Shown here: positions 1,540 to 23,012 of the stretch, one piece after another
How the letters are laid out: every line of letters starts with the position of its first letter
Numbering within the stretch: the stretch's first letter is position 1
Source of the DNA: Microlunatus soli
GTDB taxonomy: Bacteria; Actinomycetota; Actinomycetes; Propionibacteriales; Propionibacteriaceae
Direction of reading: 5' to 3'
Assembly (NCBI RefSeq): GCF_900105385.1
Contig: NZ_LT629772.1
Span: 2,232,001-2,296,000, forward strand
DNA: 64,000 nucleotides
Notes under the pieces: generated by a model
What the model was told of the DNA's origin: nothing
The model's database searches: none
What the model saw: the letters and a program-made list of their open reading frames with translations, nothing else
Made by a program: the position numbers and the translations under genes

Positions 1540-1604
1540 CCTGATCGCGGGTCACCCGAGATCGACGGTTCGCCGGGGGCCTTCGGAGTCGGGGGGCAAC
1601 GATA

Positions 1605-6547: not shown

Positions 6548-6710
6548 TAGAGTGGTGTCAGCTCGGGGGAGCAAGCCATAGGGCCGATATGTCGTCCTGA
6601 TTGTCCGGCCGGTTCGGCGGCGATCGAGACCTCAGCCTGCCTCTTATCTCCCGAGAAACAAAGACCCATCACAGTGACGGTGGGTCTTCGAATATCGGGG
6701 GATATTCAAT
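6548..6710 (+). promoter_or_regulatory. Leader of the short sugar transferase with two GGGG-loop hairpins
   Basis: A TANNNT-type -10 (TAGAGT, 6548-6553) is followed 7 nt later by a hairpin GCTC-GGGG-GAGC (6561-6572), so the hairpin would lie at the 5' end of the mRNA. Further down are a 10-bp stem with an 8-nt loop (AAGACCCATC at 6661-6670 pairing with GGTGGGTCTT at 6679-6688) and a perfect GAATATC-GGGG-GATATTC hairpin (6690-6707). The loop of the last one is the ribosome site for ATG 6711. A 3-codon open frame (ATG 6589, stop 6598) sits between. No clear -35 is visible. A role in translational control is inferred. Confidence 0.55.
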
Positions 6711-7421
6711 ATGTCACTCATCGAGCGCCCCGTGACGCGACGCGGCGAACAATCAACATCAGCGGGGCTACGCAGGGAGTCCAGGACCGTCAATCCCAGA
6801 CACGCCGGCTCGACCGTGGGGCGGCGCAGGTCCAAACGGATCGTTGATCTCGGACTGACCGCGATCGGGCTGATGGTCCTCGCACCCTTGCTGATCTTGA
6901 TCGCCGCCACGGTCAAGATCAGCGAGCCGACCGGTCCGGTGATCTTCAGGCAACGCCGGGTCGGCATCGATGGCACAACGTTCACGATGTACAAGTTCCG
7001 ATCGATGTACGCCGACGCCGAGTCCAGACTCGCTCAGCTGACTGCGATCAACGAAGGCGCCGGGCCGCTGTTCAAGCTGGTCCACGATCCTCGGGTGACC
7101 AAAGTCGGGAGGATCCTGCGTCGCTATTCGCTCGACGAATTGCCACAATTGCTCAACGTGCTGTTCGGCACGATGTCCCTGGTCGGTCCGCGGCCGGCTC
7201 TGCAGTCCGAAGTCGACACCTACGATGCTGTCGTCCGTCGCAGACTGACAGTTGTTCCTGGGCTCACCGGACTGTGGCAAGTGAGCGGCCGGTCGCTGTT
7301 GACCTGGGAGGAAAGTGTTCGGCTCGACCTGCGATATGTGGACTCCTGGTCAATCCGACTGGATCTGATCATCATGATCAGGACGGCTCAGGCCGTGATT
7401 TCCGGCCGAGGCGCCTTTTGA
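6711..7421 (+). CDS. Initiating sugar-phosphate (polyprenyl-P glycosyl-1-phosphate) transferase, short form
   Basis: The 236-aa protein is the bacterial sugar transferase domain: one membrane helix (IVDLGLTAIGLMVLAPLLIL), then GPVIFRQRRVGIDG, FTMYKFRSM, LRRYSLDELPQLLNV, SLVGPRP and PGLTGLWQVSGRS. Enzymes of this PglC/WbaP/CpsE family move a hexose-1-phosphate from a UDP-sugar to undecaprenyl phosphate, the first membrane step of EPS assembly. It lacks the four N-terminal membrane helices and the CoA-binding-like domain of the paralogue at 9548, so it is a PglC-like core enzyme. The two catalytic domains are very similar even in DNA, for example around the WEESVRLDLRYV segment, which suggests duplication. 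ATG 6711 follows a hairpin-borne GGGGGA. Confidence 0.92.
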   Translation: MSLIERPVTRRGEQSTSAGLRRESRTVNPRHAGSTVGRRRSKRIVDLGLTAIGLMVLAPLLILIAATVKISEPTGPVIFRQRRVGIDGTTFTMYKFRSMYADAESRLAQLTAINEGAGPLFKLVHDPRVTKVGRILRRYSLDELPQLLNVLFGTMSLVGPRPALQSEVDTYDAVVRRRLTVVPGLTGLWQVSGRSLLTWEESVRLDLRYVDSWSIRLDLIIMIRTAQAVISGRGAF

Positions 7422-7722
7422 CGAATTCGTTTCATCCGAGATCCCGATCGAATGCGACAGCGCAAAATCTAACGACCGAACATGACATTACTGCCACAAA
7501 CTGGCATCACCAGCTCCGTGATCGGCTGCGGCTCACTTGGGCGCCGTTCATCCGGCCAGCATGGCTCACTTGCGATACGTCGAACTAGATCTCGACCGAC
7601 TCAAAGGGCTTGTAACCGATCCCCGGATCCTCGACGGCCGCAACGCACTGGATCCGGCTCCCTGACGTGGGGCCGGATGGGTCTACCGGTTCTTGGACCA
7701 GCCCCGACCCACGGGCCGGTTG
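7422..7722. other. Intergenic stretch between convergent genes
   Basis: About 300 nt between the short sugar transferase and the esterase. I see no convincing coding frame on either strand. The only clear structure is the hairpin near its right end, listed separately. Confidence 0.6.
7652..7678. terminator. Bidirectional terminator-like hairpin
   Basis: A 10-bp stem (ATCCGGCTCC pairing with GGGGCCGGAT, one G-U pair) with a 7-nt loop lies between the convergent genes ending at 7421 (+) and 7723 (-). It has no U-run, as is common for actinobacterial terminators. Confidence 0.5.
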
Positions 7723-8727
7723 TCAGCCGAAGATCCGGCCGATCCACTCCAACTTGGCCTGGGTCTGGTAGTCGCCGCCGCCCTCGTGTCCATTGTGCGA
7801 GTAGACGTTGATCGACTTCTCCGGCTGGCCACCGGCGCGCTCGCCGTAGAAGTTGTAGGCCGCATAGACCGTCGACGGCGGGCAGGTGGCATCCATCAGC
7901 GCGACCGAGAACAGTGTTGGCGCGGTCGCACGTCGGCCCAGGTTGACGCCGTCGAAGTAGGACAGCGTCTGGTAGGCGGTCTCCACCCGGTCCCGCCAAC
8001 CGTGCAGATAGCTGGTGATCTCGGAGTATGGCGCGTTGTCGGTGATCTTGAGCGCCCGCTGGAAGTGGCAAAGGAACGGCACGTCCGGCGCGCAACCGGC
8101 CAACTCGATTCCCGCGTACGACGCCAACCCGGCTGCCGCGATCGACAGGCCACCGCCCTGGCTGCCGCCGGCGACGACGATCTTGGACGCGTCCACCAAC
8201 GGATTGCTGATCGCCGCCTGCAGACAGCGAACAGTGTCGGTGTAGAGCCGCCGGTAGTAGTAGTTCTTCGGATCATCGAGCCCGGACGTCATGAAGCCGG
8301 ACGCGTGGTTGAAGCCGGCTTCGGGCGCATCATCCGGTGTCGCGGACGGGCCGCCGGTGTTCCATCCCTGACCACGTGTGTCCATCACCAAGTGGGCCCA
8401 CCCGGCCGAGGCGAAGACCGTGCGGGAGAACGGGAACCCGCGTCCACCGGAATAGCCGAGGAATTCCACCACCGTGGGCAGCGGTCCGGTCGCGCCGGCC
8501 GGAACATTCACCCAGCCCTTGACTCGGGTGCCTCCGAATCCGGAGAAGGTCAGGTCATAGCTGTCGAAGATCGGTGTCCCGACATCGACGGGCTCGAATG
8601 TCGGATCCAGGTCGAAGTCCTGCGCCGCGGCCAGAGTCTTGGACCAGAATTCGTCGAAGTCGGCCGGTTCGGCCACCGTTGGCCGATACTGCCGGAGTTG
8701 ATCAAGATCGAGATCGAACATCGCCAT
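7723..8727 (-). CDS. Acetyl xylan esterase / cephalosporin-C deacetylase family (CE7) esterase
   Basis: The 334-aa alpha/beta-hydrolase shows the CE7 signature set: RGQ in MDTRGQGWNTGG, the nucleophile elbow GGSQGGG, the acid in ALMDATCPPST, and HE in YSHNGHEGGG. The family removes acetyl groups from xylo-oligosaccharides and related small acetylated substrates. No signal peptide is visible, so it acts in the cytoplasm. The start was set at ATG 8727 (MAMFDLD), because the longer frame runs into the promoter region of the divergent phosphatase. It could deacetylate sugars released from the acetylated polymer, but no direct link to the EPS genes is shown. Confidence 0.9.
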   Translation of the reverse strand: MAMFDLDLDQLRQYRPTVAEPADFDEFWSKTLAAAQDFDLDPTFEPVDVGTPIFDSYDLTFSGFGGTRVKGWVNVPAGATGPLPTVVEFLGYSGGRGFPFSRTVFASAGWAHLVMDTRGQGWNTGGPSATPDDAPEAGFNHASGFMTSGLDDPKNYYYRRLYTDTVRCLQAAISNPLVDASKIVVAGGSQGGGLSIAAAGLASYAGIELAGCAPDVPFLCHFQRALKITDNAPYSEITSYLHGWRDRVETAYQTLSYFDGVNLGRRATAPTLFSVALMDATCPPSTVYAAYNFYGERAGGQPEKSINVYSHNGHEGGGDYQTQAKLEWIGRIFG

Positions 8728-8776
8728 GGTGGCTGATTCTACGGCGACAGGTTGATCATGCTCCCACCAGTAACCG

Positions 8777-8788
8777 TAGAGTGAGCAG
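8777..8788 (+). promoter_or_regulatory. Probable leaderless promoter of the histidine phosphatase gene
   Basis: TTGATC (8752-8757) and TAGAGT (8777-8782) are separated by 19 nt. The ATG at 8789 follows the -10 by 6 nt, and there is no good ribosome site, so a leaderless mRNA is likely. Confidence 0.45.
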
Positions 8789-9286
8789 ATGGCATCGGAG
8801 CACACCCTCTTGCTGCTGCGGCACGCCCAGGCGGTCGACTTCGCCGCGGGCCGCGGAGACCGCGATCGGCAGCTGACCGACTACGGGCTGGAGCAGGCCG
8901 TCGCGGTCGGCAACGCGATCCGGTCGCGCGCTGTCCGTCCCGATCTCGCTGTCTGTTCACCGGCGACGCGAACCCGTCAGACCTGGACTGCTCTCGGGCT
9001 GGACACGCCCTGCGAGTTCGACGAGGACGTCTACAACGCTGGCAGCGACACGCTGCTCGACGTGGTCCGGCTGATCGCCGAACAGGTCGGCACCGCGATG
9101 ATCATCGGCCACGGCCCCGGGTTGCCGAGCTTGGCTGCTCAACTGGCGGGACCAGGATCGGACCAAAGGGCCCTGGACGTGATCAACAGTCGCTACCCGA
9201 CCGCGACCCTGACGGAGTTCGCCGTCGACGCCCCCTGGGCGGATCTGCAGATCGCTCGACTGGACTGGTTGCGCCTGGGACAATGA
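8789..9286 (+). CDS. SixA-type histidine phosphatase family protein
   Basis: The 165-aa protein begins with the phosphohistidine-forming motif (LLLRHAQAVDF; family form RHG/RHA). The conserved second Arg is in VCSPATRTRQTW and the second His in IIGHGPGLPSLA. Small phosphatases of this branch remove phosphate from phosphohistidine proteins or from small phosphoesters. It has no signal or membrane segment. It stands alone, divergent from the esterase and upstream of the second sugar transferase leader. The natural substrate cannot be told from sequence. Confidence 0.88.
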   Translation: MASEHTLLLLRHAQAVDFAAGRGDRDRQLTDYGLEQAVAVGNAIRSRAVRPDLAVCSPATRTRQTWTALGLDTPCEFDEDVYNAGSDTLLDVVRLIAEQVGTAMIIGHGPGLPSLAAQLAGPGSDQRALDVINSRYPTATLTEFAVDAPWADLQIARLDWLRLGQ

Positions 9287-9392
9287 CTCGCTTCGCAGGT
9301 GGCGATCGTCCAACAGTCGGACAAGAACGTGGTTCGGCAAAAGAATACTGCGCAATTCGGACTTTCCCCGTGTGCCCTGGACCTCTTCGCGA

Positions 9393-9547
9393 TAGCATCG
9401 CGATGAGTCTCGGGGGAGATGGCCAACCTTCGGATCCAGCGCATCGGGGCGCAGCGGATCTCGACGGTCGTTATCTGGCTTTGCTTTGTCCTGACCCCTC
9501 GTGACCTGAGTTGCGTTTCATCGGGGGATATCGGGGGATATCAGGCA
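9393..9547 (+). promoter_or_regulatory. Leader of the full-length sugar transferase with paired GGGG-loop hairpins
   Basis: TAGCAT (9393-9398) is a TANNNT -10 inside a perfect 7-bp dyad (TCGCGAT at 9387-9393 and ATCGCGA at 9397-9403). About 8 nt downstream begins the hairpin TCTC-GGGG-GAGA (9407-9418). Directly upstream of ATG 9548 are two tandem copies of TCGGGGGATA (9521-9540), which form GATATC-GGGG-GATATC (9527-9542) with the ribosome site in the loop. The frame is open back to ATG 9419, so a 43-residue longer N-terminus is formally possible. The layout mirrors the leader at 6548. Confidence 0.55.
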
Positions 9548-11101
9548 ATGTCAGCACCTGACACTGCCGTCGCAGTTCTGAGTGCCGAGCCCATCGGCAC
9601 CGACGAACTGGTCGACGGCACACACGTCAACACGTTCTCCACCAGCGGCGTCGTCGACGAGCTGGCCGAGCGACGAGGCCGCCGGTCGGCCCGGACGCCG
9701 GACTTCCGCAGCTTCGTCACGCGATCGGTTCGCGTACTGCTTGCCGGCGATGCGGCGGCCGCCGTGGCCGCGGTTGCCCTGACCGGTGTGGTGGCCGACG
9801 CCCTGAGCGGCATCGGCGCCGTCGCTTGGGTGCTGGCCGGATGTGCCGCGATGATCGTCTGGCCGATCGTGATCCTCGCCTCCCGGGGCTATCGGCGCAG
9901 TCGCCTCGGTTCTCGCAGCTCGCTCCAGGTCGTTCTCCGAGCAGCTGCGATCGTGATCGTGTCCGGGGCTCTCCCTGCCGCGTGGTTCGGCCTCGACTGG
10001 ATGCTCGCAGCCGTTGCCATCGGCGCACCGGCGGCTGCGATCGGCAGCACTGCGGTGCGGGTCGTCGTCGGTGAACGACTCCGTCGCGAGCAGCGTTCCG
10101 GCGGCACCTTGCGCAGCGTGATCATGGTCGGTGGCCCGGAAGCCGTCGACGAACTCTGCCGCGCGGTGGAGCGAGAGCGCGGCATGGGAATGCGGATCGC
10201 CGGCGTCTGCGTTCCGGCCGGCAGTGTTGATCGTGCGAAAGCAATGGGCCTCCCGGTGCTCGGTGACATCGAGCATGTCGCCGAAGCTGCCACCGAGCTG
10301 AACTGTGACGCGGTCGCCGTCACCGGAGCCGATGCCACCCGACAGAGCTTCCTGCGACAGTTGGCATGGTCGCTGGAGGGCGTCGACGTCGATCTGTTCG
10401 TCCATCCCGGACTGATCGATGTCGCACGTCCACGGATGCACATCCAGCCCTACTCGGGGTTGCCGATGCTGCATGTCGAACAACCGCACTTCACGGGTCT
10501 GCCCCGGCATGTCAAGCGGGCGACCGATATTGTGCTGACCAGCCTGGGGCTGTTGTTCATCTCGCCGTTGCTCGCGGCGGTCGCGATCGCGGTGAAGCTC
10601 GAAGATCGCCGGGGTCCGGTGATCTTCAAGCAGTCCCGAGTCGGCATCGACGGCAAGCCGTTCACGATGTACAAGTTCCGCTCGATGGTGGTCGACGCCG
10701 AGAAGCGCCTCGCGGAGCTCAAGGACAGCAATGAGGGCGCCGGACCACTGTTCAAGATCTCCAACGATCCGCGCGTCACCCGGGTGGGACATTTCCTCCG
10801 TCGATATTCGCTGGACGAGCTGCCTCAGCTGTTCAACGTCCTCGGCGGTTCGATGTCCTTGGTCGGTCCACGTCCGCCGCTGCAGTCCGAAGTCGACGCC
10901 TACGCTGAGGACATCCGCCGGCGGCTGAAGGTGATGCCCGGTGTCACCGGGCTGTGGCAGGTCAGTGGGAGATCGATGTTGTCCTGGGAGGAAAGTGTTC
11001 GACTCGACCTTCGCTATGTGGAGAACTGGTCCTTCGGTCTCGACCTGCAGATCCTCGCTCGGACCGCCTATGCCGTGCTGGCGAAGAAGGGCGCCTACTG
11101 A
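9548..11101 (+). CDS. Polyprenyl glycosylphosphotransferase (WbaP/CpsE-type), full length
   Basis: This 517-aa protein starts the lipid-linked repeat unit of the EPS by transferring a sugar-1-phosphate to undecaprenyl phosphate. The N-terminal half (about 60-330) has four hydrophobic helices and a soluble CoA-binding-like segment (IMVGGPEAVDELCRAVERE). The C-terminal half is the catalytic sugar transferase domain with FKQSRVGIDGKPFTMYKFRSM, LRRYSLDELPQLFNVLGGSMSLVGPRPP and PGVTGLWQVSGRS. ATG 9548 was chosen for its GGGGGA ribosome site and the natural MSAPDT start; ATG 9419 is in frame but has GGGGGAG touching it. It is followed by the tyrosine phosphatase gene in the same direction. Confidence 0.93.
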   Translation: MSAPDTAVAVLSAEPIGTDELVDGTHVNTFSTSGVVDELAERRGRRSARTPDFRSFVTRSVRVLLAGDAAAAVAAVALTGVVADALSGIGAVAWVLAGCAAMIVWPIVILASRGYRRSRLGSRSSLQVVLRAAAIVIVSGALPAAWFGLDWMLAAVAIGAPAAAIGSTAVRVVVGERLRREQRSGGTLRSVIMVGGPEAVDELCRAVERERGMGMRIAGVCVPAGSVDRAKAMGLPVLGDIEHVAEAATELNCDAVAVTGADATRQSFLRQLAWSLEGVDVDLFVHPGLIDVARPRMHIQPYSGLPMLHVEQPHFTGLPRHVKRATDIVLTSLGLLFISPLLAAVAIAVKLEDRRGPVIFKQSRVGIDGKPFTMYKFRSMVVDAEKRLAELKDSNEGAGPLFKISNDPRVTRVGHFLRRYSLDELPQLFNVLGGSMSLVGPRPPLQSEVDAYAEDIRRRLKVMPGVTGLWQVSGRSMLSWEESVRLDLRYVENWSFGLDLQILARTAYAVLAKKGAY

Positions 11102-11173
11102 TCGGCGACAATCGGTGCGCGTCACAGCGACCCTGCCGGGTCTCCACGCTGACGGACTGTCGGGAGGCTGCCC

Positions 11174-11785
11174 GTGACCTTGAACAACGCCACCACACCA
11201 CCGTCAGCCGAGCGCGACGGTGCCGGATCCGATGAGCTGCGGGTGCTCGTCGTCTGCACGGCTAACCAATGCCGGTCCCCGATGGCCGAATTCCTGCTGC
11301 GCCACCGCGTCCAACAGCTCGGCCTGGACTGGACAGTCTCGTCAGCCGGCACGTTGGCTCTGCCCGGTCACCAGATGCACCCCAACACTGCGCGACTCCT
11401 CCGCGCCCGGGGCATGGTTGATCCTGACTGGCGAACTCGCCGCGTCGACACACACAGCCTCAGTGGGTCAGACCTGGTGCTGACCGCAACACGCGAGCAT
11501 CGCGCTGCCGTCGTCGACACCGAACCAGGCTTGCGCGACAACGTATACACGATCCTGCAGTTCGCCGACCGCGTCAACGCAGTGCGTCAGGCCGGGATCT
11601 GGGATCCGCTGCGCGACACGTCCGACAAGTTGCTGACAGCGCTGAGGCGATCTGAAATCCCCGGAAACGGACAGGACCTGAGCGACCCGGTCGGGCGACG
11701 TTATCGACCGTTCAAGGCGTGTGCCCGAGTGCTCGATCACGCCAACGACATGATCTTCGGCCAATCGACGCAGCCAACGGAGTAG
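11174..11785 (+). CDS. Low-molecular-weight protein-tyrosine phosphatase (Wzb-like)
   Basis: The 203-aa protein opens with the LMW-PTP P-loop VVCTANQCRSPMAEFLLRHRV (family CxxNxCRSP; the catalytic Cys near residue 28) and ends with a DPVGRRYRPF segment in the place of the catalytic Asp loop. In EPS systems such phosphatases dephosphorylate the tyrosine-rich tail of the Wzc/CapB kinase and reset polymer export. The matching kinase gene faces it, starting 18 nt beyond its stop on the other strand. The GTG start has GGGAGG about 9 nt upstream. The protein is cytoplasmic. Confidence 0.92.
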   Translation: MTLNNATTPPSAERDGAGSDELRVLVVCTANQCRSPMAEFLLRHRVQQLGLDWTVSSAGTLALPGHQMHPNTARLLRARGMVDPDWRTRRVDTHSLSGSDLVLTATREHRAAVVDTEPGLRDNVYTILQFADRVNAVRQAGIWDPLRDTSDKLLTALRRSEIPGNGQDLSDPVGRRYRPFKACARVLDHANDMIFGQSTQPTE

Positions 11786-11803
11786 GCAAACGGCTGCTGC
11801 TCG

Positions 11804-13345
11804 TCAGGACGACCGGATGGGCTGCTCACGAGGTGTGGCCGCGGACGTGCGCATCGACCGCTGCGGATCGACAGCACGGGCCGGGCTCGGCGCAGGTTCG
11901 TCGTCCACTGGGTGTTCGGCTCTCGCCGGATTGTTCGGTGGTTCCGACGCGACCCGACCGTCCGCCGGCACGGGTGCCGCGGCCGGCGCCGTCTCACTGA
12001 CTGCTCCATAGTAGTCGTAGGCAGCGCCGCGCTTCTTGGTCGGCACCCGGTTGATCACCGCCCCGACGATCCGGGCATCGACCGCACGCAACGCATCGGT
12101 GGATCCGGCGAACTCCTGCCGCTTGGTCTTGCCGTATCGGGCAATCACGAGAGCACCGTCGGCCTTCGCCGCGATGATCGCTGCGTCCGTCACCGGCAGC
12201 AACGGCGGGGTGTCGATCACGATCACGTCGTAGCCGGATCGGAAGTCGTCCAGCATCGCCGCCATTCGTTGGCTGCCGAGGATCTCCGACGGATTGGGAG
12301 GTACGGCGCCCGCCGGGAGGACCGACAGCCGGTGCCGATCTCCCCAGCCCTGGATCACGTCGTCGATGTCGACCTGCCCGACCAGGGCGTTGGTCAGCCC
12401 ACGCGAGCCCTCCAGTCCGAAGTAGTCAGCGATCGACGGGCGGCGCAGGTCGGCGTCCATCAAGAGGACACGGTGCCCCGCTTCGGCGAACGCCATCGCC
12501 AGGTTCGCCGAAACGCCGGACTTGCCCTCCCCCGACATGGACGACGTCACCGCGACAATCTTCATCGGGTTGTCGACATCGGCGAACTGGATGGCTGTCC
12601 GCAACTGTCGGAACGCCTCGGCTCGAGCCGAGCCTTCGTCCCAATCCGCGATCAAGGGCGAGTGGCCGCTCTTGTCCGCGCCCTTGTCGAAGGGAATCCT
12701 CGCCAGTGAAGGCAGTTCCTTGATGTCGGACTCACCCCAGATGCGGGTGTCCAGACGGTCCCGGGTCACGGCCGCGAGCACCCCGATGATCAGCCCGCCG
12801 AGCAGCCCGGCGCCAAGATCAACTTTCTTGCGCGGCGAGCTCGGGTACAGCGGTGCGGCCGCCCGGCCGGCGATCGCATAGTCGACCGTAGCCCTACCGG
12901 ACTCGGACTTCGGCGACAGCCGACTGACCGTGCTTCCCAGCTCATCGGAGACGGCATTGGCGATCGCCGCCGCCCGATCGGCGCTCGGATCGGTCGCCGA
13001 GATGGTGATCAGGACGGTGTTGTTCGACGCCACCGCGGTGACAGCGCCGGCCAGCTGGTCCGCGGTCTGATCGAGATCGAGATGCTCGATGACGGGATCG
13101 AGCACGATCGGTTCGGTCGCCAGCTGGGCGTAGGAGGTCAACTGTTGCTGGGCATAGTTGCCGCCTTGGGCCAGGTCATTGGCCGAGCTCGCCGCCGGAA
13201 CAGAGAAGTACACCGTCGCGCTGGCTTCGAACTGCGGTGTCGTGAGGACGATCGCAGCTGCGCCGGCGCCGCCGCCCACGACGATGCCGAGGAGCACGTA
13301 CAGCCAACGCCGCCGCACGCTCCGCAAGAAATCGATAACCGTCAC
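11804..13345 (-). CDS. Wzz/BY-kinase polysaccharide co-polymerase (Wzc-like tyrosine kinase)
   Basis: The 513-aa protein fuses a Wzz chain-length domain (helix near residue 15-35, second helix near 180-200) to a cytoplasmic ATPase. The kinase part has Walker A (SSMSGEGKSGVSANLA, about residue 270), Walker A' (LLMDADLRRPS) and Walker B (DVIVIDTPPL). It is followed by a tyrosine cluster AAYDYYGAV near residue 445 and a proline/alanine-rich tail. Such kinases autophosphorylate their tyrosines and gate polymerisation and export. The GTG start overlaps the stop of the polymerase gene by 4 nt (GTGA). A TGTT-GGGGG-AACA hairpin places the ribosome site in its loop. Confidence 0.93.
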   Translation of the reverse strand: MTVIDFLRSVRRRWLYVLLGIVVGGGAGAAAIVLTTPQFEASATVYFSVPAASSANDLAQGGNYAQQQLTSYAQLATEPIVLDPVIEHLDLDQTADQLAGAVTAVASNNTVLITISATDPSADRAAAIANAVSDELGSTVSRLSPKSESGRATVDYAIAGRAAAPLYPSSPRKKVDLGAGLLGGLIIGVLAAVTRDRLDTRIWGESDIKELPSLARIPFDKGADKSGHSPLIADWDEGSARAEAFRQLRTAIQFADVDNPMKIVAVTSSMSGEGKSGVSANLAMAFAEAGHRVLLMDADLRRPSIADYFGLEGSRGLTNALVGQVDIDDVIQGWGDRHRLSVLPAGAVPPNPSEILGSQRMAAMLDDFRSGYDVIVIDTPPLLPVTDAAIIAAKADGALVIARYGKTKRQEFAGSTDALRAVDARIVGAVINRVPTKKRGAAYDYYGAVSETAPAAAPVPADGRVASEPPNNPARAEHPVDDEPAPSPARAVDPQRSMRTSAATPREQPIRSS

Positions 13346-14748
13346 TGTTCCCCCAACAATCCGCGTCCGGATGAATCACCCGAGCGCGACACGATCGCAG
13401 TCAGGCTACCTGACCGTGGGTCGGGCGAGGCCCGTTCCGACAGCTTCGCCGAAGCATTCGCCAGGTCGCCCGCCGTATCCTCGAGTCCTCGTCGAGCGAG
13501 TGTCTCCGACACCTGACCGCAGACCGCCAGGCCCACTACGAACCAGAAGAAGTCCGCGTACTGAGTGATCAGCGCAACAGTCGCCAGAGCCGGGATCTGC
13601 GCGACGACCGCAATCGTCGCTGCAGTCCCCCGCCGACTGATCACAATCAGTACGGCCGCGAGCAGCCCCAGCAGTCCGAGGATCAGGGCGAACCACCCGT
13701 ACTGCAGGCCGGTCAGAATCAGCTGACTGTCGATCGAGCGGAAGGTGCCGAAGAAGAACTTGCCGTCAGGACTCTTGCGAGCCAGCGGTGACATCCCGAG
13801 AACGGAGATGCCCGGCACCAGATCGAGAAGCGATCCGCGGTAGCCGGCGCTCGCCGTTGCTTCATCCCCTGCGCTGCGCAGCGTTCGCAGGACGAACGGC
13901 AGAGCAGCTGCAGCCAGTACCCCGAACATGAGAATCAGACCGGCCCGGATCCTCGGCGCCAGCTCACGGAGCAGGAACAACACCAACACAACGCCGATCA
14001 CGGCTCCGGCGATGGAGACCCGACTGACGGTCAGGACGACGCCGATCCCCATCACGACGGCCATCGCGCACCGCAGCCACGGCCGAAACCGTGACCCCAA
14101 CGCCATCGGGATCGCCATCGCGGTCGCGCTGCCCGCCGCGATCGAGTGCCCGAATGCTCCTTCGGACCGAGTCACCGCACCACGGGTCTGGAGATCACCC
14201 CAGACGGAAAACAGGTCCGGATTACGATCCGGGAAGGCCAGGAACGGATTCCATCCCGTCACCATCTCCATGATCAATCCGACTGCCACGACGGTGAAGA
14301 CAACAGCAACCGCTCCGTACAGCCATCGCACTCCGACCAGGCCTGCGACCAATCGGCCGATCAGGTAGGGAAACAGCCAGCTGGTGATCACGACGAAAGC
14401 GGTCGACAGCGTCGCACCGCCGGTGACGATCGGCGCCAGGCAGCTGAGCATGAACGCTGCCATCAGATAGTCCGGCAGTCCCAGCCTCAGCTCGCCGAGC
14501 CGATGTTTGACAAAAACCAGCAGAACCATCGCGACCACGGTCGCGGGCATGAAATAGAACTTCAGCGTGACCCCGGTCCAGACCGGTATCAGTGCGACGA
14601 CGAGCAGCCAGACGGCGACGCCGACCCGCGGCCGGTGTCGGAACACCAGACCGAGCGCCAGCGCTCCGGCCGCTCCGAGCAACGCGACGACCAGCGTTGA
14701 GGCACTAATCGACATCGCCGTACAGCGGTGTCGACCGACGGCCGACAC
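13342..14748 (-). CDS. O-antigen ligase/polymerase-like membrane protein (Wzy-like)
   Basis: The 468-aa hydrophobic protein has about 11-12 membrane helices and one longer extracytoplasmic loop (about residues 300-345, DLVPGISVLGMSPLARKSPDG), the layout of the Wzy/WaaL superfamily. These enzymes polymerise or ligate undecaprenyl-linked repeat units on the outer face of the membrane. Sequence identity within the family is low, so the call rests on topology and on neighbours: flippase upstream, co-polymerase kinase downstream with a 4-nt overlap. The start may be GTG 14748 or ATG 14715; neither has a strong ribosome site. Confidence 0.8.
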   Translation of the reverse strand: MSAVGRHRCTAMSISASTLVVALLGAAGALALGLVFRHRPRVGVAVWLLVVALIPVWTGVTLKFYFMPATVVAMVLLVFVKHRLGELRLGLPDYLMAAFMLSCLAPIVTGGATLSTAFVVITSWLFPYLIGRLVAGLVGVRWLYGAVAVVFTVVAVGLIMEMVTGWNPFLAFPDRNPDLFSVWGDLQTRGAVTRSEGAFGHSIAAGSATAMAIPMALGSRFRPWLRCAMAVVMGIGVVLTVSRVSIAGAVIGVVLVLFLLRELAPRIRAGLILMFGVLAAAALPFVLRTLRSAGDEATASAGYRGSLLDLVPGISVLGMSPLARKSPDGKFFFGTFRSIDSQLILTGLQYGWFALILGLLGLLAAVLIVISRRGTAATIAVVAQIPALATVALITQYADFFWFVVGLAVCGQVSETLARRGLEDTAGDLANASAKLSERASPDPRSGSLTAIVSRSGDSSGRGLLGEQ

Positions 14749-14760
14749 CGAGTTCGTAGT

Positions 14761-16278: not shown

Positions 16279-17369
16279 GCGACAACTCGCTCCAACAATC
16301 TCGGCACCGGCTCCAGCAATTCCTGGGCACGGTCTCGGACCGCTCCGGCACGATCGGGCGCCTTCGGGTCGTCCATCGTCTCCAGGACGCGATCGATCGC
16401 GGAATCACTCTGCCGCTTCAGATCGATGCTGTCCGGCCCATCGATCGCCTCCAGCAACGGCGCGAACTTCCGCGAGTAGGCCAGCGGGATCGCGGGCACG
16501 CCCAGCGAGAGCGCATTCAGGCAGGCATGCATCCGGGACCCGATCACCAGTTCGGCCGTGGCGATCTTGGCCCGCACGTCATCCAGTGACGTGGGCACCA
16601 GGATCTCCGGACGGTCGTCACCTGCCTCTGCGACCTGGTCGGCAAACTCGCGGCAGGCTGGTTCGTCATTGTCCGGGTCCGGCGAATCAATGACGTGGGC
16701 AAGCAGCGTGACGTGCCGACCGCTTCGCTGAACCTGCTGGAACAGCTGGGACAGGAACCTGCGGTAGCCAAGATGATCGACGTGCGGATTGGGTTGCCAG
16801 AGCAGCCCAGACACGTTGAGCAGGATGTCGTGGGTCTTCAGCGCGACGAGTTGATCAAGGGCGAACACAACATCGGTGGTCAGGAGTTCGACCGGGCGGC
16901 GGAGTTCGGCCGCGACCTCGGCACTGCGCCGATCCCGTGCCATCACTGCGGTCGCCGTGCCGAGAGCCCGCCGGCCGAGGAGTCGGCCACGGCGAGTGCC
17001 GAACGGTCCGATCGTCTGTGGGCTGTAGACGATCGGAACGCGTGCTCGCCCGACGATCTCGGACATCAGGTTCATCGTCCAGAGCCGTTGCAGACCGTAG
17101 ATATCGGCAAAGCTGTCCCCTGCTCGGGTGTCCAGGACAAGATCGAACTGCCTCACCCAGTCGGTCAATCCGTCGGTGTCTCGGATCAGTCTGCGCAGCT
17201 GGGAGCGGTGCGACCCGATCCGCACCGGAGCATCACCAGGCCCGTAGCCCTGGCGGCTGACCTCGACTGCCGGATCGATGCGGCGCAGGATCGCCTCGGT
17301 CCCAGCGCCCAACGCACGCACTCCGAGATTGGCGGAGCGCTCTTCGCCCCAGAGGATCAGAGCTTTCAT
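16275..17369 (-). CDS. Polysaccharide pyruvyl transferase family protein
   Basis: The 364-aa protein begins KALILWGEERSANLGVRAL, with the Rossmann-like start of the CsaB/WcaK/ExoV family. It contains YSPQTIGPFG, VMARDRRS and, near the end, ELVIGSRMHACLNALSLGVPAIPLAYSRKF (in pieces), which is the family's nucleotide/PEP region. Members add pyruvate ketals to sugars, making the polymer acidic, so a pyruvylated EPS is implied. The ATG overlaps the stop of the lipoprotein gene (ATGA), and its own stop overlaps the flippase start. Confidence 0.9.
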   Translation of the reverse strand: MKALILWGEERSANLGVRALGAGTEAILRRIDPAVEVSRQGYGPGDAPVRIGSHRSQLRRLIRDTDGLTDWVRQFDLVLDTRAGDSFADIYGLQRLWTMNLMSEIVGRARVPIVYSPQTIGPFGTRRGRLLGRRALGTATAVMARDRRSAEVAAELRRPVELLTTDVVFALDQLVALKTHDILLNVSGLLWQPNPHVDHLGYRRFLSQLFQQVQRSGRHVTLLAHVIDSPDPDNDEPACREFADQVAEAGDDRPEILVPTSLDDVRAKIATAELVIGSRMHACLNALSLGVPAIPLAYSRKFAPLLEAIDGPDSIDLKRQSDSAIDRVLETMDDPKAPDRAGAVRDRAQELLEPVPRLLERVVA

Positions 17370-18133
17370 CCGACATTGCCCGAGAATTGCAGCACCGTAC
17401 GACCGGAGCCGTACTGCAGGTGAACCGTGACCGGCTTACGCAACGACTCAGCCAGCGTGAAGACGTAGGTCCCCCGGCTCGAGCCGTCGACGTCGAGAGT
17501 GCCGGCCAGCGGAGCCGACTTGCCCCCGGTGGTGACGATGCCGGGCGTACCGTCGGAGCCGCTGAGTGTCACGCTCACCGTGCCGAGATCGATCGGCGCC
17601 GCACTGCCGTTGGTGATCTTGACCGTGGTGGCGACAGCAGCGCCACCCACCTCTCCGGGGCCGACCGGGGCCGCCTTCGCAGCCGTGACCTTGGTGACGG
17701 CGACCGTGACGCCGTCGTCGAAGCGCGCGGTTTGATGCAACGGCTTCTTCGACTCGTAGCTCACCTTGTGGGTGTCCTCGGACCGCTGCTTGATATTTCC
17801 CTTCGGACGCACCGGTTTCGCCGGCTTCGTCGCTGTCGGGTCGGCCTTCGCCGATGCCGTGCTGCTCGCCGACGGCTTCGACTCCTTCGACGGCTTGGCC
17901 TTGTCGGCCTTGTCCGATGGGGTGCTCTTGTCCGAAGGATGTGTCGATGCCGTCGGCTTGACCGACGGTGCCGCAGACCCCGGCCCCGCCGGAACCGCGA
18001 CCTGCGTAGAGGCACAGGACTGGACTCCCAACCCGATGACCAGTGCCGCCAACACGCCGGCCCCTGCCCGACCCCACCTCCGCACTGCCGAAGACGACCG
18101 GCCCCCCGCCGAGCGATCCGCACGATTCGTCAT
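17366..18133 (-). CDS. Secreted or lipid-anchored protein of unknown function in the EPS operon
   Basis: The 255-aa protein has an N-terminal signal with an AGVLAALVIGLGVQSCAS core. The Cys could be a lipobox Cys, although VQSC is a weak match. A linker of about 70 residues rich in Ser/Lys/Pro/Ala follows, and then a C-terminal beta-rich domain with VATTVKITNGSAAPIDL and SRGTYVFTLAE, resembling DUF4352-type immunoglobulin-like folds. ATG 18133 was chosen for GAAGGGG upstream; an in-frame ATG at 18217 would put a long hydrophilic stretch before the signal. It is coupled to the pyruvyl transferase. A periplasmic accessory role in export is inferred. Confidence 0.75.
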   Translation of the reverse strand: MTNRADRSAGGRSSSAVRRWGRAGAGVLAALVIGLGVQSCASTQVAVPAGPGSAAPSVKPTASTHPSDKSTPSDKADKAKPSKESKPSASSTASAKADPTATKPAKPVRPKGNIKQRSEDTHKVSYESKKPLHQTARFDDGVTVAVTKVTAAKAAPVGPGEVGGAAVATTVKITNGSAAPIDLGTVSVTLSGSDGTPGIVTTGGKSAPLAGTLDVDGSSRGTYVFTLAESLRKPVTVHLQYGSGRTVLQFSGNVG

Positions 18134-18225
18134 CGTTTCCCCTTCAAACCCAGCTTCGGGCCGGAGGCCCGGATCACCGGAATCTCTTCCTGGATTGGCG
18201 TTCTCAATCATGATCATCTACCTGC

Positions 18226-21200
18226 TCACGCACCGGCCGCGGCCGACAGCACGCGGAGATTGTCCACCGCAACGGTGACCGGGAAGGTTGTGGTCGTTCC
18301 GGACGCATAGCTCCGGATCGCGACCCCGCCGGCTCCCTGGACACTCGCGGTCGCGTCGTTGGCCGTGACCAGCCAGGTCGACGGCTCGGCAGCCGTGCTG
18401 GCCCAGACCTTGCCGGACAGCGATGTCGTCGTACCGTCGCCGACGGCTTGGAGACGGATCCGCAGCGCGTCCGTCGCCGTCACGTTCGGCACAGTGGCGG
18501 TGGCCAAGATCGTTTCGGTGCCGTTGGCCAGCCTCGACAGTTGGGCGATCACCGATCCGGACGCGGCGAACTGGAGCTTCAACATCTCCTCGGCCGATGC
18601 TGTCTTGCGGGCCGAGAAGTAGACATAGGCACCGTTGCCGTTCGGTGTCCGGTCCAGCTTGACGTCCGAGGTGAGCACCAGGTCACGGGACGACACGGCA
18701 GCGAGTTGGGCGACATTGGACTGTCGGGCCTGGCTGATCGTGATCTTGCCGACCCCGTCGGCGACGGCGTATTGCGACGCCGTCCCGGAGACGGTCCAGG
18801 CCCCACCTGTCGTCGCGCTGCCCCATCCCGACGAGGTCGTCCGGGAGAAGTCATCGGAGGCAAGAGCGTCGTCGGCCGCGGCCACCGTCACCGTGTGGGT
18901 CGTGGAGGCGGTGGCGCCCCCGTTGTCAGTGACGGTGAGCTTGACGACGTAGTCACCGGCGGCGGTATACCGGTGCGACCCGGTTGCGCCCGCCCCGTCG
19001 GGGGTGCCGTCGCCCCAGTCCCACGAATAGCCGGTGATCGTGCCGTCGGGGTCGGCCGACGTCGTCCCGTCGACCGACACCACGAGATGATCGATCGCTG
19101 TGGTGAAGGCCGCGGTCGGGTCCTGGTTCGCCTCGCCGGTCGACGGCGACGTGACGCGCAGGTTGTCGAACGAGGCCGTGACCGGCAGATTCGTCGTCGT
19201 CCCCGACAGATAGGTTCGTACGCCGACACTGCCGGCCAGCTGTGCACTAGCGCTGTTGTCGGTGACCGTTCGCAGCCAGCTGGACGGCTCGGTCCCGGAA
19301 GCCTTCCACACCTTTGCCGACAGCGTCGCTGGTGCGGTGCCGTCGACCTGGAACCGGACGCGCAGCGTGTCGGATGCGGCGACGCCGGGAACGGTTGCCG
19401 AGGTCAAGATCGTTTCCGCACCGGCGCTGAGCCGGGACAGCGACATCACGACCGAGCCGGAGGCGGTGAACTGCAGCTTGAGCAACTCTTCACCGGAAGC
19501 GGTCTTTCGGGCTGTGAGGTAGGCGTACCCGCCGCCGCCGTTGGGTGTCTTGTCCATCGACACGTCGGCCAGCATCGCCACGTCCCGGGTCGAGACTCCG
19601 GACAACTGCGCCACATTGGACTGGCGGATCTGGGTCATGGAGATGTTGCCGGTCCCACCGGACACCGCGTAGGCGCCGGTGCTGCCGGTCAGTGACCAGG
19701 CGCCACCGGTATCGGCCGATCCCCAACCACCGGTCTGGTTCCGGGAGAACTGATCGGCCGCGATGACTCCGGCTTGCGGTTGTTGCACGGTGATCGTCTT
19801 GGTGACGGCGTCGGTGGCTCCGTCGTTGTCGGTGACGGTCAGTTTGACCGTGTAGTCACCGGCGGAGGCGTAGGTGTGGGTTGCGGTCTTGCCCGACCCG
19901 TCGGCACTGGCATCACCCCAGTCCCAGGCATAGCTCGCGACCGTACCGTCCGGATCAGCCGACCCCGCGGCGTCCACGGAAACGGCCAGACCGTCGGTCG
20001 ACGCTGTGAAGGCAGCGGTCGGCTTCTGGTTGGCCGCCACCGTGACCGAGTGACTCACCGTGTCGGTGGCTCCGTCGTTGTCGGTGACGGTCAGTTTGAC
20101 CGTGTAGTCACCGGCCGAGCCGTAGGTGTGGGTTGCGGTCTTGCCCGACCCGTCGGCACTGCCGTCGCCCCAGTCCCAGGCATAGCTCGCCACCGTCCCG
20201 TCGGAGTCGGAGGAGTCGGCTGCGTCCACGGTCAGCTTCAGTTCGTCGGTGTTGCTGGTGAACGCCGCGGTCGGCGACTGATTCGGTTGACCGCCGGTGC
20301 CGAGCGTGTAGAGCGCCCGGGCATCGTCGGCGCTGAGCACACTGTCGAAGACCGCGAACTCATCGATCGATCCGGCAAAGTTGGAGCTGGATGGTCCCGA
20401 CGGCCAGCCGCCGAGGTTGTCGCCACCGATCCGCCAGTATCCGGTGTAAGCCTGGGCTGAAGTGACATCGGTCCGGGCCGCGATCTGCTCGCCGTCGATG
20501 ATCAATCGCATGCCGCCCGATCCCAACGAGGCAACGGCCTGGTGCCAATCGCCATCGTTGTAGGTGTCGGTCGACTGCACCGTCTGGGTCGAGCCTGGAT
20601 AGACACCGAAGATCACGTGACCGGCGTTGTCCATGTAGACGTGACGGTCGTAGTTGCTGGATGAGCCGTCGTTGGAGTTGCCGAAGCCGAAGATCTTTCC
20701 GCCTCGGCCGGTTGTGGTCTTGAACCACGCTGTTGCGGTGAAGGTGTCACGCGCCGAGCCTGCTGAGGTTGCGGCGACGTAGCCGGAGGAAGATCCGTTG
20801 AAGCTTGCCGCGGTGTCGGGATCGTCGGTGATGGCGCCCGGCTGTCCGAAGGACACCCCGGATCGGACGATGCCGTCGTTGGAGCCGGACAGGTCCTGCG
20901 CGCTGCTGCCGGAGTCCTCCCCGAGCCGCCAGTAGAGACTGGCGTCATCGTCCAGCACCTTGGCACCGTAGGGGCTGATCGAGCCCGCCACGACGGACGC
21001 GGTGACCGAACTGCTGGTCACTGTGTTGCCGTCAGGATCGGACACAATCACCTTGTAACTATGGCTTCCCGGTGTTGCCGAGGAGTCGGTGAGGCCGACC
21101 GTCGGTCGATCCCAGAAGGTCGAGGACACCGACTTCTGAGCCACCGGATGGGCGGTGTCGTTGTCTCTGATCAGCTTGTAGGTGAGCTTCATGTTGTCGC

Positions 21201-22686
21201 GGTCCCAGTTGGCACCGAAGGTGACCCGCGCGATGCCCGGGGCCGCGGTGTTGACCGAGATAGGCCAGTTGGACCCGGTCAGTCGAGGGCCCTGCTTCGG
21301 TGTCGTCACGGTCCGCTTGGCGAAGCGGACCAGACCGTACTGAGCACTGCCGTTGACCCCGGGGAACTCGCCGCCGAGCGACAGGTAGTTCCCGTTGCCG
21401 GTGACCGACCAGGCTGCCTGGCCGACGCCGGTGAACTTGCCGGTGTAGAAGTCCGGGAACCAGTTGATCATGGACGGGCCGGGCGTGCCGTACCAGTCCT
21501 TGTAGGTGCCGCCGGCATAGGGATCGTGAGAGAGGGTCCCGGTCGGCTCGGCGGTGAAGGCGATCGCGTGCCGCATGTTGACACCCCAGTCCGGCTCGGA
21601 CTGGGGGAAGCCGCCGACCGTTCCGCAGTAGTGGGCGTGGCTCAGGGTGTAGACGGTCGCACTGTCGGAAAAGACCCCGTAGGTGTCGCCGTGGCACGCC
21701 TCGACCCAGTTGATCTCGCCGCTGTCCGGCTTGGCAGAGAACGCGCCCTCGAGGTTGCCGGTGTTGACATCGGCGAAGCCCCAGCCGGTCCCGAAGACTG
21801 AGGTCCCGTCGGTGCTCAACGAGTAGATCCCGGCCTTGCCCGCGTTGGGTCCGGTCGAACTCCCGTTCTTGATCGTGTCGGGCGCCGCCCACGGAAGAGT
21901 CGTTCCTGTACTGGAATCCAGTGCGGCCAGGCCCCGTTGGTCGGTTCCGTTGACCTTTCCGAACCGGCCGCCGACGATGATTTTTGATCCGCCCGGCGCC
22001 AGCACCATCGCGTCGACCTGGAGGTCCGTGCTGGGTGTCCAGTTCAGCAGCGCACCCGAGGAACTGTAGGCAGCCAGATTGGCCCGGGCGGATCCGTTCG
22101 CCGCGGTGAACAAGCCACCGAGGTAGACAGTCGAGTTGGTCGCGACGATCGACGAGACGAAGGAGCCACCGACAGCCGCGGTGAAGGTCGAGAGCAAGGC
22201 GCCGGTCGACGGGTTGAGAGCCGCGACCAAATACTTGTTCACGCCGTTGACCTTGGTGAAGTCACCGCCGATGTAGAGCCGCGATCCGTCCGGCGACTTG
22301 GTGATCGTCCTGACCTGTCCGTTGACCTGCGGCGCAAAGCCGGGCACCAGGTCACCGGTGGTGATGTCGTAGGCCAACACGTTGCTGCGCGGTGTCAGGT
22401 TCGTGCCCTGAGCCGCCCCTGGTGGGCGGGTGTTGGAGAAGTTGCCGCCGACGTAGACGATATTGCCGATCATCACCTGCGACCAGACGACACCGTTGTC
22501 CAGTTGGACGGTCGGCAGTGCGTCGGCGCTGACGATGTCGGAGGAGGAGTCCTTCAACGGCGGCGGGCTCGGCAACGGATCGGCCTCGGCTGCTGGCACG
22601 GGTGCGCCGAGCAGCAGGCTCGCTGTGAGCAGCCCCAGTGCCGTCAGCACAGCCAAGAACCGACGTTGAATCGACCGTCCGCCCAT
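18226..22686 (-). CDS. Large secreted beta-propeller/LamG/PKD multidomain protein
   Basis: The 1486-aa protein has a Sec signal (RRFLAVLTALGLLTASLLLGAP). It continues with a beta-propeller-like region of VYVGGNF/LYIGGDF repeats (about 40-460), a fibronectin-like stretch (about 465-560) and a LamG/concanavalin-like domain (about 574-795, LYWRLGEDSG). Two adjacent PKD domains follow (about 800-880 and 882-965, DWGD...HTYxSAGDYTVKLTVTDNDGA). Then come a beta-sandwich module starting near 973 (ADQFSR..GGWGSA), a third PKD (about 1185) and a second copy of that module (about 1271). All are extracellular glycan- or protein-binding folds. It is the first gene of the minus-strand EPS operon, so a surface protein that binds or organises the polymer is likely. 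ATG 22686 has a hairpin-borne GGGGGA. Confidence 0.88.
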   Translation of the reverse strand: MGGRSIQRRFLAVLTALGLLTASLLLGAPVPAAEADPLPSPPPLKDSSSDIVSADALPTVQLDNGVVWSQVMIGNIVYVGGNFSNTRPPGAAQGTNLTPRSNVLAYDITTGDLVPGFAPQVNGQVRTITKSPDGSRLYIGGDFTKVNGVNKYLVAALNPSTGALLSTFTAAVGGSFVSSIVATNSTVYLGGLFTAANGSARANLAAYSSSGALLNWTPSTDLQVDAMVLAPGGSKIIVGGRFGKVNGTDQRGLAALDSSTGTTLPWAAPDTIKNGSSTGPNAGKAGIYSLSTDGTSVFGTGWGFADVNTGNLEGAFSAKPDSGEINWVEACHGDTYGVFSDSATVYTLSHAHYCGTVGGFPQSEPDWGVNMRHAIAFTAEPTGTLSHDPYAGGTYKDWYGTPGPSMINWFPDFYTGKFTGVGQAAWSVTGNGNYLSLGGEFPGVNGSAQYGLVRFAKRTVTTPKQGPRLTGSNWPISVNTAAPGIARVTFGANWDRDNMKLTYKLIRDNDTAHPVAQKSVSSTFWDRPTVGLTDSSATPGSHSYKVIVSDPDGNTVTSSSVTASVVAGSISPYGAKVLDDDASLYWRLGEDSGSSAQDLSGSNDGIVRSGVSFGQPGAITDDPDTAASFNGSSSGYVAATSAGSARDTFTATAWFKTTTGRGGKIFGFGNSNDGSSSNYDRHVYMDNAGHVIFGVYPGSTQTVQSTDTYNDGDWHQAVASLGSGGMRLIIDGEQIAARTDVTSAQAYTGYWRIGGDNLGGWPSGPSSSNFAGSIDEFAVFDSVLSADDARALYTLGTGGQPNQSPTAAFTSNTDELKLTVDAADSSDSDGTVASYAWDWGDGSADGSGKTATHTYGSAGDYTVKLTVTDNDGATDTVSHSVTVAANQKPTAAFTASTDGLAVSVDAAGSADPDGTVASYAWDWGDASADGSGKTATHTYASAGDYTVKLTVTDNDGATDAVTKTITVQQPQAGVIAADQFSRNQTGGWGSADTGGAWSLTGSTGAYAVSGGTGNISMTQIRQSNVAQLSGVSTRDVAMLADVSMDKTPNGGGGYAYLTARKTASGEELLKLQFTASGSVVMSLSRLSAGAETILTSATVPGVAASDTLRVRFQVDGTAPATLSAKVWKASGTEPSSWLRTVTDNSASAQLAGSVGVRTYLSGTTTNLPVTASFDNLRVTSPSTGEANQDPTAAFTTAIDHLVVSVDGTTSADPDGTITGYSWDWGDGTPDGAGATGSHRYTAAGDYVVKLTVTDNGGATASTTHTVTVAAADDALASDDFSRTTSSGWGSATTGGAWTVSGTASQYAVADGVGKITISQARQSNVAQLAAVSSRDLVLTSDVKLDRTPNGNGAYVYFSARKTASAEEMLKLQFAASGSVIAQLSRLANGTETILATATVPNVTATDALRIRLQAVGDGTTTSLSGKVWASTAAEPSTWLVTANDATASVQGAGGVAIRSYASGTTTTFPVTVAVDNLRVLSAAAGA
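19786..20275. repeat. Tandem duplication of PKD coding sequence
   Basis: Two adjacent PKD domains are nearly identical in DNA. For example, the stretch at about 19,813-19,862 recurs at about 20,068-20,117, about 250 bp apart. This indicates a recent duplication and a possible site for domain-number variation by recombination. Confidence 0.75.
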
Positions 22687-23012
22687 CTCAATTCCCCCGA
22701 ATTGTCCAGTTCGCTGCGCGGATGCAGGGCCGACCCCGACGCGTCCGGCGCTCCTGCGATCCCCGACGAATCGCCTCGAACGAACTGACACCTGGTTGCG
22801 ACCCCAACGCAACGCCAGGGCAAACGGTAACAGTCGGCGGGGCGGCCGTAGGCACAATCGCGATATTCGTCGAGCACGGTTTCGACGCACAGCCCGTGGC
22901 AATGAGTAACGGGCTTTCGTCCTGAAGGTATCCAGAAGCCCTCCGGAGGGGTAACCTTCTGCACGCGAGCGATCTGTCGGTGCCGCATCATGTACGTCTT
23001 CGGGGGAAGCAC
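22687..23012. promoter_or_regulatory. Divergent control region of the two EPS operons
   Basis: These 326 nt separate the minus-strand operon (ATG 22686) from the plus-strand glycosyltransferase operon (ATG 23013). Each side ends in a GGGG-loop hairpin at the ribosome site: CAATTC-GGGG-GAATTG on the minus strand (22689-22704) and CTTC-GGGG-GAAG on the plus strand (22998-23009). In the middle, GAAGGT (22924-22929) and ACCTTC (22954-22959) flank the perfect palindrome CCCTCCGGAGGG (22939-22950), which looks like an operator. No convincing -10/-35 pair could be fixed. Confidence 0.5.

Follow-up and report, generated by a model that had tools for sequence, protein, structure and literature searches.

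Results

The window considered here, a stretch of 64,000 nucleotides (G000:C1:2232001-2296000; G000 is the window's own genome) from the 6.73-Mb chromosome of a member of the genus Microlunatus, contains a region of exopolysaccharide (EPS) genes in which a small hairpin recurs just upstream of gene starts. Its GGGG tetraloop, closed by a C-G pair, forms part of a run of at least five G at the position of the ribosome site, and its stem differs from gene to gene (Table 1). Such G-loop sites precede the genes of two sugar transferases, a hexapeptide acyltransferase, a GT4 glycosyltransferase and a PKD/laminin-G protein; a Wzz/BY-kinase gene is a weaker member, and the gene of a DUF4082 protein has the G-run but no stem. 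All of the sites named in the original prediction (6690, 9527 and 22998 on the plus strand; 402, 13346, 18135 and 22689 on the minus strand) are present in the sequence. The prediction requires correction in that several leaders have a second hairpin near the presumed mRNA 5' end, such as those at 6561 and 9408, which were not listed there and which lie just after promoter-like words. These two 4-bp sites are 132 and 121 nucleotides (nt) upstream of the loops at 6697 and 9533, respectively. When the whole window was scanned for GGGG tetraloops on a perfect stem of at least 4 base pairs (bp), seven were found. The closing pair is C-G in six, all of them in the EPS region (6565, 6697, 9412, 9533 and 23002 on the plus strand; 22695 on the minus strand), and the seventh, at 23413, is intragenic with another closing pair.

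Table 1. Hairpins, G-runs and genes of the window, with the candidate partner RNA located elsewhere in the same genome
Feature	Position	Strand	Remarks
Weaker site CTC-GGGG-GAG, 3 bp	402..411	-	Precedes hexapeptide acyltransferase gene (ATG 391)
TCGGGGG at ribosome site, without perfect stem	1589..1595	+	Gene of 1617-aa DUF4082/Ig-like protein (GTG 1605)
5' hairpin GCTC-GGGG-GAGC	6561..6572	+	7 nt after -10-like TAGAGT; presumed mRNA 5' end for the sugar transferase at 6711
Ribosome-site hairpin GAATATC-GGGG-GATATTC, 7 bp	6690..6707	+	Loop end 10 nt before ATG 6711
Gene, bacterial sugar transferase	6711..7421	+	PF02397
5' hairpin TCTC-GGGG-GAGA	9408..9419	+	Directly after -10-like TAGCAT
First G5 of tandem pair	9520..9529	+	Overlaps the 9527 ribosome-site hairpin
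Ribosome-site hairpin GATATC-GGGG-GATATC, 6 bp	9527..9542	+	
Conserved hairpin over start codon, GGCA-TGTCAG/CTGACA-TGCC	9544..9568	+	
Gene, sugar transferase, 517 aa	9548..11101	+	PF02397
Weaker site TGTT-GGGGG-AACA	13346..13358	-	Precedes Wzz/BY-kinase gene (GTG 13345)
Weakest site GTTT-GAAGGGG-AAAC	18135..18149	-	Precedes ORF 18133 (no Pfam family)
Gene, large PKD/laminin-G protein, presumed secreted	18226..22686	-	
Ribosome-site hairpin CAATTC-GGGG-GAATTG, 6 bp	22689..22704	-	Precedes ATG 22686
Ribosome-site hairpin CTTC-GGGG-GAAG, 4 bp	22998..23009	+	Precedes ATG 23013
Gene, glycosyltransferase (DUF1972/GT4)	23013..24185	+	
C-loop RNA, two hairpins	G000:C1:4245456-4245530		Upstream of methylmalonyl-CoA mutase, outside the window
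(aa, amino acids; ORF, open reading frame)

Homologues of the sugar transferase gene at 9548 occur in 50 of 57 genomes, the window's own included. For comparison, 73 leaders were assembled from 30 loci of the homologue search, 40 further stretches and three regions of longer stretches; many short C-terminal homologue matches were left out, and in L045, L273, L288, L294, L297, L307 and L308 the match starts at query residue 143 or later and the upstream region may not be the true leader. Runs of five to seven G (G5-7) were taken from the 73 upstream regions regardless of pairing. Thirty-nine such runs, from 37 leaders, are spaced as ribosome sites with respect to an in-frame start, a tally that is uncleaned and includes likely false starts (that of L034 at -159, for example, is a 5' hairpin). 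Among these, 26 distinct sites are preceded by C, related sequences included, and 13 of them form a stem of at least 5 bp (G-U allowed), compared with a mean of 1.5 and a maximum of 6 in 2000 shuffles, which ignore kinship. The same is true of 9 of the 42 other leader sites (shuffled mean 1.1, maximum 5).

At the 26 unselected ribosome sites, 65.9% of the cells are paired versus 51.5% after shuffling, and 44 cells carry a double change versus 22.4. The covariation score is 0.427 versus 0.182, a value matched by none of 500 shuffles, and it falls to at most 0.237 when the partner is slid. Pair 3-16 illustrates this freedom, being A-U, C-G, G-C and U-A in five sites each and unpaired in six. The original prediction of a constant loop on stems that change on both sides is thus borne out by compensatory changes in homologous leaders, and covariation, whose absence among orthologous leaders it had considered as evidence to the contrary, is present, although two coarser measures are no higher than in shuffled sites (see Discussion). 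The 9527 hairpin itself is identical in three relatives (G012, G007 and G006), both of its arms are changed in G010 (GATTTC/GAAATC) and G024 (TGATTC/GAATCA), and wholly different stems are found in distant leaders, these two together with CCCGTC/GACGGG, GTGAGTC/GACTCAC, TCACC/GGTGA and CGTTC/GGACG. The pairing also follows the coding strand: CGGGGG with a stem of at least 5 bp is found in 23 of the 73 leaders (the word itself in 43), whereas the antisense control gives one of 73 (the word in 14). Stems of this length are found in 12 of 28 leaders of the same genus, 3 of 9 from other genera of the family, 5 of 13 in f2 and 3 of 10 in f4. As a further correction to the original prediction, only 2 of the 29 leaders examined from other orders have the strict hairpin, although G5-7 ribosome sites are present there, and none of the 13 leaders of family f3, which belongs to the same order, has it. 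Among 18 further loci read by eye, two Kineococcus leaders have two or more G5-7 runs. By comparison of these leaders, we are highly confident that the G-loop RNA element itself is well established.

The loop pattern alone does not exceed chance; what does is the combination of stem, strand and position before starts. In the window, CNGGGGNG occurs 61 times, below the 99.9 expected. Across 16 stretches of 20 kb taken at random from the own genome, a stem of at least 5 bp accompanies 3 of 127 distinct C-preceded G5-7 runs (shuffled mean 2.8), and stemmed repeats, which the original prediction had worried might be equally common away from starts, are there at chance level. The octamer TCGGGGGA, with 280 copies in the genome (133 plus, 147 minus) versus 31 for the reversed word, was rejected as a specific signal because it is common and because its first 30 copies in the genome have stems at chance (at least 5 bp in 3 of 30; shuffled mean 1.9). 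Among the matches listed, this octamer is mostly on the minus strand below 2.14 Mb and on the plus strand from 2.20 Mb, and the sampled GC skew changes sign near 3.1 Mb, away from that switch. The octamer may be a chromosome-polarity word separate from the hairpins, presumably akin to words of the FtsK-guide type. The word ATCGGGGGAT occurs at 16 places in the genome and, by eye, marks leaders only at its three window copies.

A covariance model (R1), as the original prediction had proposed, was built from 21 hairpins chosen for their pairing, seven of them from the window. It recovers the window and a few new leaders, but none of its 18 matches in the own genome, at an expectation value (E) of up to 10, is individually significant genome-wide (best E 0.19). 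Seven of the 11 best matches (at least 19.1 bits) are window sites, all within its first 23 kb. Two matches outside the training set, at 5.241 and 5.243 Mb, closely precede coding starts, by 6 nt in the case of a glycosyltransferase-2 gene and by 10 nt in that of an 82-aa ORF. Their locus is not an EPS cluster and has DnaG, a sigma factor and a permease among its neighbours. L084 lies some 16-40 nt ahead of where another ORF may start, and L085 has no credible start. No credible leader was seen at the other seven matches. Five relatives gave 79 matches, of which 30 were inspected: eight are sugar-transferase leaders, mostly training sites, four are clear new leaders (L324, L326, L327 and L338), three are possible ones (L312, L321 and L328), and 15 lie inside coding frames or lack a credible start.

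The genes with such leaders in relatives encode a Wzz/kinase (L120), a PKD/malectin protein (L119), a DUF4397 protein (L324), a fibronectin-III protein (L338) and cytidylyltransferase-like proteins (L326 and L327, with Pfam run on L327 only). The link to EPS genes drawn in the original prediction holds in that these genes belong to the set, but the set is wider and takes in secreted proteins as well. Within positions 1-24000 of the window, 5 of 11 TCGGGGG words lie 4-13 nt before a start with an ORF, while the rest of the window has 0 of 6, L096 has 1 of 5 and 540 kb of other own-genome stretches have 2 of 72, namely a glycoside-hydrolase-like protein with FG-GAP repeats (L113) and a case inside a coding frame (L392). 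For other NNGGGGG words in the same 540 kb, the count before starts is 13 of 188.

The architecture of the leader of the 9548 gene is retained in full in G012, G007 and G006. It comprises, in order, a -10-like GATAGCAT or GCTAACAT, a GGGG hairpin just downstream, in the same position as the 5' hairpin at 9408, a diverged middle, a tandem G5 with the GATATC ribosome-site hairpin, and a hairpin over the start codon. The start-codon hairpin at 9544-9568 has the same core stem in G012 with a changed loop. Across the 73 leaders and the window's 6565 region, TANNNT lies 4-14 nt upstream of 6 of the 17 CGGGGG sites that have a stem of at least 3 bp and are not ribosome sites, compared with 3.2% in the control; three of the six positives are orthologous leaders. 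In several leaders, then, a hairpin likely sits at or near the mRNA 5' end, as judged from these promoter-like words. Ribosome-site hairpins are part of the predicted minimum free energy (MFE) structure in 7 of 10 contexts of 65 nt, the one at 22998-23009 being outside that of its own context. A strong 10-bp stem (AAGACCCAUC/GGUGGGUCUU) without a U-tract was also observed at 6661-6688, directly before the 6690 hairpin.

A potential partner was located outside of the window. This C-loop RNA (Table 1) is found upstream of the mutase gene in four Microlunatus genomes (G000, G006, G007 and G012) and was traced from a match in G006, which lies about 33 kb away from a gene with a mapped relative in each of the other three. 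Its first hairpin (HP1) is near-constant, reading CACCGGCC(A/T)AACCCCCGA(G/T)GGCCGGT, whereas the stem of the second (HP2) is, by eye, changed on both sides among the four genomes; in G000, HP2 leads into a T-rich tail. The HP1 loop, CCCCCGA, is the exact complement of UCGGGGG, and seven pairs are possible. Predicted duplexes with this loop range from -15.3 to -20.4 kcal/mol at 6697, 9533, 22695, 23002 and 405, with values of -13.3 at 13346, -8.7 at 18135 and -6.4 kcal/mol for a generic ribosome site. In 19 of the 21 hand-picked hairpins, C-G5 follows a U, a preference to be expected if this base pairs with the A of CCCCCGA. Leaders reading ACCGGGGGG occur in family f2 and would predict a CCCCCCGGU loop in the partner RNA. 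A 12-bp hairpin at L247:1501-1553 (G024:C1:1307785), just after a TACAAT resembling a -10 element, has the loop AUCCCCCGA, the exact complement of UCGGGGGAU.

The best Rfam match of the G000 candidate stretch is 6C (RF01066; 27.4 bits). At standard settings, the only 6C match among the 57 genomes was a sub-threshold one in G049 (40.7 bits), with none in the own genome. Under lax settings, weak 6C matches appeared in 9 of the 10 genomes searched; most were of a quality expected by chance, and control genomes gave matches too. The ten loci read from this search include some hairpins with CCCCCGA loops. The candidate and the G049 element have the loop AAACCCCCGA in common, and the latter precedes a gene resembling a mutase/ArgK-type protein; since that gene has only partial matches in the window's family, synteny with the G049 element proved unusable. 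No 6C-like match was found near HAD genes in 13 HAD loci scanned, a neighbourhood which we take to be the mycobacterial location of B11. Between the C-loop RNA and the mutase gene in G006 (L399:13411-13866), blastn revealed repeats of 69 nt that share 75-77% identity and are spaced by about 194 bp.

Discussion

The interpretation we favour, with a probability of roughly 0.47, is that a trans-acting, 6C-like small RNA docks on the G-loop hairpins through a C-rich loop. That the hairpin acts as a site of translational control, by whichever agent, is probable. We would put the odds slightly below even that the 6C-like RNA is the partner, for which it is a good, but unproved candidate. In its fullest form, a divergent 6C-type RNA would use its CCCCCGA loop to kiss UCGGGGG tetraloops in two places, the mRNA 5' end and the ribosome site, a proposal we offer tentatively and lean against. 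According to this model, the hairpins would serve as regulatory RNA elements in the leaders of genes for EPS, glycosyltransferases and secreted proteins, with stems free in sequence but held to pairing, and would display a G-run of at least five, serving as the ribosome site, in the C-GGGG-G tetraloop; in several leaders, a second such hairpin stands at the presumed mRNA 5' end. Pairing of the CCCCCGA loop with UCGGGGG would block the ribosome site, and translation of the whole surface set would be lowered at once. From the sequences, we infer that cells make the C-loop RNA, that it meets the G-loop hairpins and that the outcome is repression.

A precedent exists in the mycobacterial 6C RNA B11, which, in the passages cited here, represses through C-rich loops that pair with G-rich ribosome sites (PMC10470900, PMC12395582). 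The Mycobacterium abscessus RNA can use either C-rich loop to repress a gene whose leader contains a G6 tract (PMC10470900, as excerpted), and part of a second report describes an action of the Mycobacterium marinum RNA on lipooligosaccharide synthesis (PMC12395582). Like B11, whose targets in these excerpts include cell-surface genes (PMC10470900, PMC12395582), the candidate is an actinobacterial RNA with a C-rich hairpin loop. Unlike 6C RNA, its second loop is without the C5 run in three of four genomes. Moreover, what the candidate is presumed to target is a structured G-loop hairpin whose stem covaries, a feature not described in the cited B11 passages; relative to those passages, the novelty lies in a G-run that forms part of a conserved acceptor hairpin. 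A limited literature search, covering sources in part, found no published description of the G-loop element. As the original prediction supposed, it belongs to no described family in so far as the window's leaders match none in Rfam.

Several observations weigh against a trans-acting RNA of this type. The candidate scores far below the 6C gathering score of 47 in both genomes for which it was scored (27.4 bits in G000, 26.5 in G006), its 27.4 bits are close to the chance matches of the lax search, and that search returned two other places in the own genome (24.4 and 22.9 bits) rather than the candidate's. Only in G006 do both loops have C5; in G000, G012 and G007, it is confined to the first. 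The C-loop RNA was not found upstream of the mutase gene in G010 and G024, despite their G-loop leaders, and either the gene has moved, another RNA serves or the idea is wrong. Family f3 holds the clearer 6C element (G049), yet none of its 13 leaders has a stem of at least 5 bp. Hairpins with a CCCCCGA loop on a stem of at least 6 bp also occur elsewhere in the scanned stretches, and the case for the C-loop RNA therefore rests on its conservation and position; it could also be a cis-acting leader of the mutase gene. On the side of the G-loop leaders, U precedes C-G5 in 16 of the 26 unselected sites, a lower share than among the hand-picked hairpins, and the ribosome-site hairpin is not in the MFE structure of the 155-nt leader at 9405-9559. 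Across all 624 kb, TCGGGGG before starts (8 of 94) is not above GCGGGGG (7 of 74) or ACGGGGG (3 of 24), and its enrichment is therefore confined to the EPS region. Finally, at the 26 ribosome sites there is no excess of pairs with a double change (6 versus 5.8 shuffled) or of pair types (17 versus 18.0), and a slide by -1 still pairs 61.0% of cells.

A constant loop on free stems suits docking of a protein as well as of an RNA, and an unlikely, but serious alternative is that a dedicated RNA-binding protein recognizes the GGGG loops of both the 5' and the ribosome-site hairpin, bridging them as a CsrA/RsmA-like dimer and repressing translation. CsrA/RsmA binds G-rich loops in several leader hairpins, one of them over the ribosome site, and has biofilm and EPS genes among its targets; a 5' hairpin together with a ribosome-site hairpin is the layout typical of CsrA targets. 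Several of the leaders described here likewise contain at least two hairpins, of which one covers the ribosome site and another lies close to the presumed 5' end. The constant element, however, is a G5 run preceded by C (often UC) rather than ANGGA, and in the tetraloop register the GGA of GGGGGA would be partly within the stem. A CsrA regulon was ruled out since the own genome has no csrA gene and CsrA is present in only 2 of the 57 genomes searched; no alternative protein was identified. JUMPstart/ops with RfaH and the targets of LoaP are also 5' leader elements of polysaccharide genes, but the G-loop elements differ from these in overlapping the ribosome site. No JUMPstart match was found in the window, and LoaP/RfaH antitermination was rejected because the own genome has a single NusG-family match and thus no specialized paralogue. 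Among the actors named in the original prediction, a small RNA now has a concrete candidate, whereas no known protein does (no CsrA, a single NusG). Temperature appears to be an unlikely regulator because the predicted stabilities of 18 chosen hairpins are not uniform, spanning -2.2 to -10.4 kcal/mol.

Alternatively, the leaders may be self-contained switches in which the G-loop hairpins and an intervening C-tract re-pair, or in which two hairpins join in a metabolite-dependent manner. This is reminiscent of guanidine-II (mini-ykkC), whose leaders have two small hairpins of similar sequence (PMC5486947, PMC2864571, both as excerpted) that dimerize through their loops (PMC5486947). We consider this improbable, even though the consensus fold of the four closest leaders joins the C-tract to the first G5 of the tandem and contains 9 pairs, of 44 predicted, that show a double change in one or more of the four sequences, and the MFE structure of the 6558-6719 leader pairs its 5' G-run with the downstream CUCCCGAG. 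The loop is GGGG rather than ACGR, is not self-complementary, and Watson-Crick pairing between two such loops is impossible. In addition, the spacing between hairpins is highly variable, and some leaders are single-hairpin, with no other G5 within 150 nt upstream of the sites at 23002 (L086) and 5.241 Mb (L083). About as improbable, in our estimation, is that the hairpins merely tune basal translation or mRNA stability, as a displayed ribosome site and a protected 5' end with no trans regulator. The G-run at ribosome-site distance, the adjacency of 5' hairpins to presumed promoters and moderate predicted stabilities that would permit ribosome binding are all consistent with such tuning, but it leaves unexplained both the constant loop with changing stems and the functionally narrow-looking gene set. 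Far less credible is a DNA operator, i.e. an inverted repeat bound by a transcription factor, or a set of chance palindromes around a common octamer. The abundance and regional strand bias of TCGGGGGA would favour this view. Conversely, the arms are wholly different between sites yet complementary, the hairpins follow the coding strand, as the antisense control demonstrates, the ribosome-site copies are about 120-130 nt downstream of the presumed promoter, and the first 30 octamers have stems at chance. An operator was accordingly rejected on arms, strand and position.

Should the G-loop hairpins indeed be docking sites for a C-loop RNA, several implications would follow. Post-transcriptional control of EPS in actinobacteria is little known, and most of these organisms, to our knowledge, lack CsrA and Hfq. 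The presence of G-loop leaders and a putative matching C-loop RNA in one genome suggests a shared control of the cell surface, and in the fullest form of the loop-loop proposal, one RNA would set the whole cell surface of Propionibacteriales. 6C RNA, a known repressor at G-rich ribosome sites, would become a system with a defined and evolving RNA-RNA contact, and a structured acceptor hairpin with compensatory evolution would provide a signature for reading the targets of C-loop small RNAs in genomes.

Elsewhere in the window, positions 39732-39809 give a sub-threshold match to the S-adenosylhomocysteine (SAH) riboswitch, at 33.4 bits versus a gathering score of 37.

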